Assembly (NCBI GenBank): GCA_947307355.1
Contig: CAMZIV010000002.1
Coordinates: 1-36,216, forward strand
Direction: 5' to 3'
From: an uncultured Candidatus Saccharibacteria bacterium
GTDB taxonomy: Bacteria; Patescibacteriota; Saccharimonadia; Saccharimonadales; Saccharimonadaceae
Length of the DNA: 36,216 bases
Position numbers and translations under genes: made by a program. The notes below the pieces were generated by a model that made no database searches, was not told where the DNA came from, and saw nothing but the letters and a program-made list of their open reading frames with translations. Shown one piece after another: positions 1 to 7,902 of the stretch (its first letter is position 1; each line of letters opens with the position of its first letter).

Positions 1-49
1 CGACCTCGACTTCCCAAAAGTCGCGCGCTACCAACTGTGCTACACCCAG
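1..49 (-). tRNA. tRNA-Pro (anticodon TGG), 3' part cut off by the window edge
   Basis: Reverse complement reads CTGGGTGTAGCACAGTTGGTAGCGCGCGACTTTTGGGAAGTCGAGGTCG; anticodon stem CGACT/AGTCG with loop TTTGGGA; upstream minus-strand TGATATAATATAG promoter at about 61-68. Confidence 0.9.
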
Positions 50-124
50 ACGGTATCTATATTATATCATATTGTTTAAAAAAATGAAGAGATTTTAGCT
101 TTAGGCTTATGGTATAATAATAGT

Positions 125-6354: not shown

Positions 6355-6441
6355 TGGTGCCCACTAAGAGACTTGAACTCTTACGATATTGCTATCACTA
6401 GCACCTGAAGCTAGCGCGTCTACCAATTCCGCCAAGCGGGC
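6355..6441 (-). tRNA. tRNA-Leu (anticodon CAG) with encoded CCA
   Basis: Reverse complement GCCCGCTTGGCGGAATTGGTAGACGCGCTAGCTTCAGGTGCTAGTG...GTAAGAGTTCAAGTCTCTTAGTGGGCACCA; long variable arm; minus-strand TATAAT at 6450-6455. Confidence 0.95.
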
Positions 6442-6457
6442 CTGAGGCAATTATAAC

Positions 6458-6490
6458 ACAAAAAAGTACCCCTGAGATAATCTCAGGGGT
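6458..6490 (-). terminator. Intrinsic terminator of the candidate ncRNA
   Basis: 10-bp perfect stem, 3-nt loop, then AC and TTTTTT on the minus strand. Confidence 0.85.
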
Positions 6491-6686
6491 ATAGAAGAGA
6501 GTTATGATGACAATACGGAGATAAGATGCCCTACGGAATAATTTTAAAATATTGTATTTATAGGTGTTCGTAGTTCTAAATAACTTTGAAAAGGAGGTGT
6601 GGGCACCTCGAATTAGTTGCAGCCTGGCTGCTCTGTCATCAAACGGAAATGTTCGAGCCACCCCGGCCATTGAGGGCGACTTAATA
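6460..6686 (-). ncRNA. Candidate structured non-coding RNA with its own promoter and intrinsic terminator
   Basis: Minus strand: TTGCAT (-35) 17 nt TATAAT (-10, 6692-6697); terminator hairpin ACCCCTGAGA-TTA-TCTCAGGGGT then TTTTTT; internal hairpins GAGGTG-CCCA-CACCTC, GCAG-CCAGG-CTGC and CTCGAA/TTCGAG. Confidence 0.6.
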
Positions 6687-6759
6687 ACTATATTATATCA
6701 CACTTTTGCTAAAAATGCAAGAGTTTTTTCTGTTTTACGCTGTGATATAATAAAATTAT

Positions 6760-7902
6760 ATGATTATGCTTAATTTTAACCCAGAGGTAGACCAGGGAAA
6801 ACTCGCGGAAATTTTGGCGAGTATTAGGGGTGACGCTATGGGTGGTTGGGTGGATTTGCCAAAAAACATCCTAATTGATGAGATTTTAAGTATAAAAGAG
6901 GCGGCTAAGAAAATAACAGAGGAAGCCGAATATTTGGTTTGTATTGGTATTGGAGGTTCTTATCTGGGGCACAGGGCGATTATAGAGGCGCTTTCGCCAA
7001 AATCTGATGTAAAAATTGTTTACGCTGGTAATTCCCTGAGCCAGAGAGAATTAAATAGAGTGCTAACAGAGGTGGGAGATGCTGATTTTTCGGTGCTTGT
7101 GATCTCTAAATCTGGGACAACTTTGGAGCCGAAAGTGGCTTTCGAAGCCTTTAAGAAGAAATTAGTCGAGAAATATGGCGAGCAAGCCAGCTCTAGGATT
7201 TATGCGACGACGGATGCGCATAAGGGCGAGTTGCACGATGAGGCTGTCCAGAACGGTTACACGCGTTTTATAGTGCCCGATAATGTAGGCGGAAGGTATT
7301 CAGTATTGTCCGCAGTGGGGCTTTTGCCGCTTGCGGTGGCTGGTGTTGATATTGATAAACTACTTGAAGGCGCTACTGAAATGTATGGTGATGCGGGGAT
7401 TCAGGCGGCAGCAAAGTACGCATGGCTCCGGTGGATGCTTTTTGAGAGGAATTATGATACGGAGGTTTTTGCCAGTTTTGAGCCAAGTACGGCGTATTTT
7501 AATGAATGGCTAAAGCAATTATTTGGAGAATCGGAAGGGAAAGGGAAAAAAGGTATTTTCCCTGCTTCCCTGATTTATTCTACGGATTTGCATTCAATGG
7601 GGCAATTTATGCAGGATGGGCGCAGAAACTTGTGGGAGACGATTATCGATTATCCAACTGACGAGCTGAACCGTAAAGTTGTAAAAGCTGTAAGGGCGGC
7701 GCATTCTCAGGGCGGAATTCCGGTACTAAATATCGGTGTGCCGAGTTATGACGAAAAAGGTTTTGGTGAACTAATTTACTTCTTTGAAATGGCATGTGCG
7801 ATTAGTGCAAAATTACAGGGAGTAAATCCGTTTGATCAGCCAGGTGTAGAAGCTTATAAAAAGTTATTAAAGGATGGGCAGAATGGAAAAGCTACATTAT
7901 GA
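6760..7902 (+). CDS. pgi: Glucose-6-phosphate isomerase
   Basis: YLVCIGIGGSYLGHRAIIEAL...VLVISKSGTTLEPKVAFEAF; TATAAT 8 nt upstream of ATG. Confidence 0.95.
   Translation: MIMLNFNPEVDQGKLAEILASIRGDAMGGWVDLPKNILIDEILSIKEAAKKITEEAEYLVCIGIGGSYLGHRAIIEALSPKSDVKIVYAGNSLSQRELNRVLTEVGDADFSVLVISKSGTTLEPKVAFEAFKKKLVEKYGEQASSRIYATTDAHKGELHDEAVQNGYTRFIVPDNVGGRYSVLSAVGLLPLAVAGVDIDKLLEGATEMYGDAGIQAAAKYAWLRWMLFERNYDTEVFASFEPSTAYFNEWLKQLFGESEGKGKKGIFPASLIYSTDLHSMGQFMQDGRRNLWETIIDYPTDELNRKVVKAVRAAHSQGGIPVLNIGVPSYDEKGFGELIYFFEMACAISAKLQGVNPFDQPGVEAYKKLLKDGQNGKATL

Follow-up and report, generated by a model that had tools for sequence, protein, structure and literature searches.

Does the minus strand between pgi and the tRNA-Leu(CAG) gene of an uncultured Candidatus Saccharibacteria bacterium encode a functional RNA and, if so, of which kind? 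Regulatory RNAs appear to be little known in Saccharibacteria, and a limited literature search found no paper on small RNAs of the group. The DNA analysed here, referred to as the window, is a stretch of 36,216 nucleotides. The closest PGI proteins in named records belong to Candidatus Saccharibacteria of the gut of sheep, goat, cattle, yak and water buffalo, and the window organism is a Candidatus Saccharibacterium of this ruminant-gut type.

On the minus strand, the -35 hexamer TTGCAT (6720-6715) is followed by a 17-nt spacer and by TATAAT (6697-6692) within an extended -10 element, TGTGATATAAT; the promoter thus spans 6692-6720. At the other end, an intrinsic terminator at 6461-6491 features 11 pairs, a 3-nt loop and a T run (TACCCCTGAGATTATCTCAGGGGTA-CTTTTTT, 6491-6467). 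The body between them is non-coding. All parts of the transcription unit described in the first-pass annotation are present. As judged from the spacing to the -10 element, we infer that transcription starts near A6685, which yields a candidate non-coding RNA of about 225 nt (6461-6685, minus strand). The promoter is unusual in its own genome. The pattern TTG-N10-22-TGTGNTATAAT is found 44 times in the whole 658-kb genome, this promoter included, and the RNA gene would be strongly transcribed. The promoters at 6689-6759 are identical at 55 of 71 positions to those of the closest relative (z 11.6). Compared with dinucleotide shuffles, the RNA has the better fold, with a z of about -4.4 to -4.8 when the terminator is included and of -2.7 for the body alone. 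We are fairly confident that 6685-6461 is a real transcription unit.

Two further claims made for this unit fared less well. A 13-mer common to this promoter and that of tRNA-Pro is indeed present, at 68-56 of the minus strand, but is essentially just the -10 box, TATAAT and TGTGNTATAAT occurring 1033 and 88 times in the genome, respectively. The proposed pairing of AGTTAT near the 5' end with ATAACT is not upheld, because most of AGTTAT would lie upstream of a transcript starting near A6685. The tRNA gene at 1-60 (minus strand), read as tRNA-Pro in the first-pass annotation, is truncated by the window edge and has the same TGATATAATATAG promoter sequence; being incomplete, it receives no ARAGORN call.

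The RNA is flanked by separate genes. Downstream, tRNA-Leu(CAG) (6355-6441, minus strand) has its own TGTGTTATAAT upstream. The divergent pgi gene (6760-7902, plus strand; PF00342 match) features TATAAT about 9 nt ahead of its ATG (6740-6762), and its mRNA is therefore probably leaderless in the window species. pgi appears leaderless throughout the clade of the window, and many relatives carry a GGAGG-type Shine-Dalgarno (SD) sequence at the pgi start. The closeness of the divergent promoters, and the tRNA gene directly downstream, would suit a cis regulator whose transcription or read-through reaches tRNA-Leu, or which interferes with the pgi promoter. We consider this role unlikely: the strong terminator and the separate tRNA promoter set the RNA apart from the tRNA, and many relatives have both pgi and the tRNA without an RNA in between. 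That the locus is a short protein-coding gene is barely credible. A 90-aa frame does occur at 6670-6398, but it crosses the terminator, extends into the tRNA, has neither an SD sequence nor a Pfam match, and has no comparable counterpart in the homologues described below. Its own promoter and terminator, together with the lack of a conserved reading frame, are features that the unit has in common with trans-acting antisense small RNAs.

Searches of the window with Rfam 15 at gathering scores revealed only the tRNA; no family, riboswitches included, was found at the RNA. Below threshold, PsrR1 matches best; it covers the terminator end with a score of 28 bits, the cut-off being 42. Neither tmRNA (RF00023) nor RNase P RNA (RF00010) matches the locus, and the genome carries its own copies of both elsewhere, at G000:C29:6671-7025 and G000:C44:2993-3326, respectively. 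The failure to assign the RNA to a known family, already reported in the first-pass annotation, is confirmed by these searches.

We identified homologues in the two relatives that are closest by PGI, RGIG5876 from sheep jejunum (83%; hereafter G086) and RGIG7521 from water buffalo jejunum (78%; hereafter G070). In both, a non-coding body of about 200-250 nt, with a promoter and a terminator of its own, lies between pgi and tRNA-Leu. Local alignments of the bodies, promoter and terminator left out, were scored against dinucleotide shuffles and gave z values of 5.6 (window-G086), 3.3 (window-G070) and 3.0 (G086-G070). All three share the same order of elements: a 5' hairpin, a GAUGAC-type strand, the P2 hairpin, a AACUAAUU-type linker, the CCUCCUUU/CCCCUCUUUU tract, an A/U-rich part and the terminator. 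The three bodies thus appear homologous yet fast-diverging. In a control in which spacers were compared with G086, the RNA body scored z 5.0, spacers without visible shared regulatory sequence scored -1.8 to 2.7, and other spacers, including a divergent promoter region, scored 5 to 22. By this measure the body seems to be more conserved than most empty spacer and less so than promoters. Since spacers with promoters can score as high as the body, homology alone is no proof of selection on the RNA. The topA-upstream RNA described below, which is housekeeping-like and from the same genus, is far better conserved than the body.

The RNA is narrowly distributed. BLASTN searches of 60 relatives found no homologue, and a sequence model of the three bodies, run against 174 genomes of the genus, retrieved the three and no convincing further one. 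The next matches had E values of 4e-5 and weaker per genome; those read, with L214 left out, were coding or A/T-rich and had no core. Restriction to three species argues against both 6S and signal recognition particle (SRP) RNA, which are expected in all species. A strongly diverged 6S RNA, acting as an RNA polymerase decoy, would fit the size range and the stand-alone gene; RF00013 finds no 6S RNA in the genus, it gives matches below threshold in two other families of the order, and a rod with a bubble is among the possible folds of the G070 homologue. However, RF00013 does not match the window RNA at E 10 nor the G086 and G070 homologues at E 5, neither the window RNA nor that of G086 folds as a rod, the slots of the other species examined lack the RNA, and no convincing homologue came up elsewhere with the sequence model. 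Without a model match, genus-wide occurrence or a conserved rod, the RNA is very improbable as a 6S RNA. The sub-threshold matches are L117 (G059:C15:7775-7926, 39.5 bits) and L118 (G037:C51:16563-16716, 32.4 bits).

An SRP RNA missed by the Rfam models is scarcely plausible. RF00169 finds none in the genome of the window (G000), G086 and G070, RF01854 none in these and in G083, G071 and G001 (six genomes), and the window RNA contains AGCAGCC. The apical tetraloop motif is missing beside AGCAGCC, however, and AGCAGCC itself is not retained in the homologues. The models may simply miss a diverged SRP RNA in the searched genomes; a whole-genome regular-expression search for the SRP motif was uninformative.

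In other species of the genus, the same slot holds a small open reading frame (ORF), a short spacer or other sequence, the last category having been only partly examined by eye. The ORF encodes about 80-120 aa with the consensus MxYxxSVxLK...NGFxIY...YxCxYNG..PxQxVL, has no significant Pfam match and, in the 15 genomes searched, is almost confined to this slot. Its promoter is similar to that of the RNA. Members of the family, such as L123, L124, L137, L139 and L158, are fast-evolving, carry the motif YxCxYNG, and have a strong promoter and an SD sequence. Some species have repeated palindromic elements, ACTATTCGGGACCATAAGCTTGGGCGAACG among them, inserted between pgi and tRNA-Leu, as in the slots L152, L170 and L045/L148. 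In the PGI tree, the species with the RNA form one group (support 98/92) nested among ORF-bearing and empty lineages; the RNA state has a single origin.

This history provides the main rival to a functional RNA. The clade may have lost the small protein gene served by the promoter, leaving a relic transcript in which promoter and terminator persist and the body is transcribed but drifts without function. We regard such a relic as a serious possibility, although not the likeliest one. What speaks for it is that many other species have the fast-evolving ORF family in the slot and others have nothing there, that the promoters are similar, that the RNA state is nested among ORF-bearing lineages and that the body diverges rapidly. 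Yet the ORF-family model found no remnant in the three RNA slots in protein space, nor did it retrieve a copy from the rest of G000 or G070, and at the nucleotide level ORF transcripts and RNAs show no similarity (best z 1.9). Moreover, the bodies are still alignable, unlike most gene-free spacers, and two of the three RNAs fold much better than shuffles. That a structured regulatory RNA took over, in a one-time event, the promoter that serves the protein gene in most lineages of the genus, so that protein and RNA genes alternate at the locus and possibly perform the same regulatory task, is a rather improbable scenario.

Folds were predicted for each homologue. In the minimum-energy fold of the window RNA, a closing helix, P1, is formed by UUGAUGACA (6634-6642) and UGUCAUCAU (6504-6512), with pair probabilities of 0.64-1.0. 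An equivalent helix of different sequence (AAGAAGAG/CUCUUCUU) closes the domain with high probability in G070, which scores z -5.4 against shuffles with its terminator included. P1 is absent from the minimum-energy fold of G086, which is only slightly better than chance (z -1.9). The P2 hairpin (GCAGC-CAG-GCUGC, 6619-6631), followed by the AACUAAUU linker, is the sole helix in the consensus fold of the three sequences, with 4 pairs and 0 double changes; no consensus fold is supported beyond this one hairpin. CTCGAA and TTCGAG, thought in the first-pass annotation to close a sub-domain, are both present, but their pairing is kept in neither homologue.

The same annotation described an anti-SD-like hairpin in the RNA. 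GAGGTG-CCCA-CACCTC is found at 6609-6594, followed by CTTTTC (whole element, 6588-6609), and holds the stretch CACCUCCUUUU, which presumably resembles the 3' tail of 16S rRNA; a search of the assembly for GGNTCACCTCC located no 16S 3' end. The hairpin is specific to the window species and absent in G086 and G070. The part that is retained, in 3/3 sequences, is a C/U-rich tract (CCUCCUUU or CCCCUCUUUU), which is complementary to strong SD sequences and, in the predicted fold of the window species, is half paired in the hairpin. Outside the RNA locus, exact AAAGGAGGTG occurs at four sites of the genome, all four shortly upstream of an ATG, with pairing of up to 11 nt. In specificity, such pairing does not exceed that of the 16S tail, and any 16S-tail-like piece would have this complementarity. 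The best recurring BLASTN match, a 25-mer that includes the hairpin, falls within coding sequence of rpoB (EMEVWALEAYGAA) and is most readily taken as a chance similarity. What stands of the original description is an independent non-coding transcription unit that has no Rfam family; the anti-SD hairpin is not supported as its defining part.

We tentatively favour, at somewhat less than even confidence, a functional, lineage-specific and Hfq-independent regulatory RNA, possibly pairing with SD sequences. Body homology, the conserved promoter, the single origin, the folds of the window and G070 RNAs and the tract common to all three point to it. These are weighed against a comparison of three sequences, a consensus of four pairs, the poor fold of G086 without P1 and the pairing of the tract in the window species. 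The RNA would act in trans without Hfq, a step less certain than its transcription; searches of six genomes of the genus detected no Hfq. Its C/U-rich tract (CCUCCUUU) would pair with the SD regions of some mRNAs and lower their translation, in the manner of C-rich-motif RNAs of Firmicutes. In the window species, the tract is half buried in the hairpin, which would need to be opened. In S. aureus, RNAIII and the Rsa RNAs are Hfq-independent and use C-rich or UCCUCC motifs to pair with SD regions. The window RNA resembles them in being a stand-alone gene with its own promoter and terminator, an SD-complementary C/U-rich tract and a host in which Hfq was not detected. It differs from them in that its tract is paired in the window species and any targets are putative; we know of no sequence relation between them.

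While listing the strong promoters of the genome, we noticed a second non-coding unit of about 310 nt, located upstream of topA at G000:C7:7325-7645 (plus strand; L241), between a dprA-like gene and topA. Its promoter is TTGACA-TGTGATATAAT and its terminator hairpin is conserved. Of 36 genomes tested in the genus, 34 carry the unit, that of the window among them; at the BLASTN level, it was found in none of 24 other genera. Identity between species ranges from 72 to 91% and is 78-91% for most species. In an alignment of 30 sequences, 71 pairs were counted, with 97.6% of cells paired and a double change in 30 of the 71; structure and counts derive from the same alignment, without phylogenetic correction. 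A stretch, UAUUACCUCCACU, looks invariant. Nothing in Rfam matched at E 0.05, and the hits that came up at E 10 were weak and at chance level. The topA-upstream RNA is a strong candidate for a structured RNA of Saccharibacteria that is as yet undescribed. Both RNAs occur in the same genome with the same type of strong promoter, a terminator and no Rfam family. In contrast to the pgi-side RNA, however, that upstream of topA is nearly genus-wide, well conserved and extensively covarying, and the two have no sequence relation; the pgi-side RNA was rejected as a paralogue (z below 0.6).

The pgi-side RNA is probably an independent small RNA gene of one small clade of gut Saccharibacteria, a modest find rather than a hidden housekeeping RNA, as far as its sequence and distribution indicate. 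It led to the far better conserved topA-upstream RNA, which is more deserving of a study of its own. Should the pgi-side RNA be functional, a host-dependent bacterium, from a genus in which Hfq was not detected in six genomes, would have in it a lineage-specific regulator, encoded at a locus that holds a protein gene in some lineages and an RNA gene in others.
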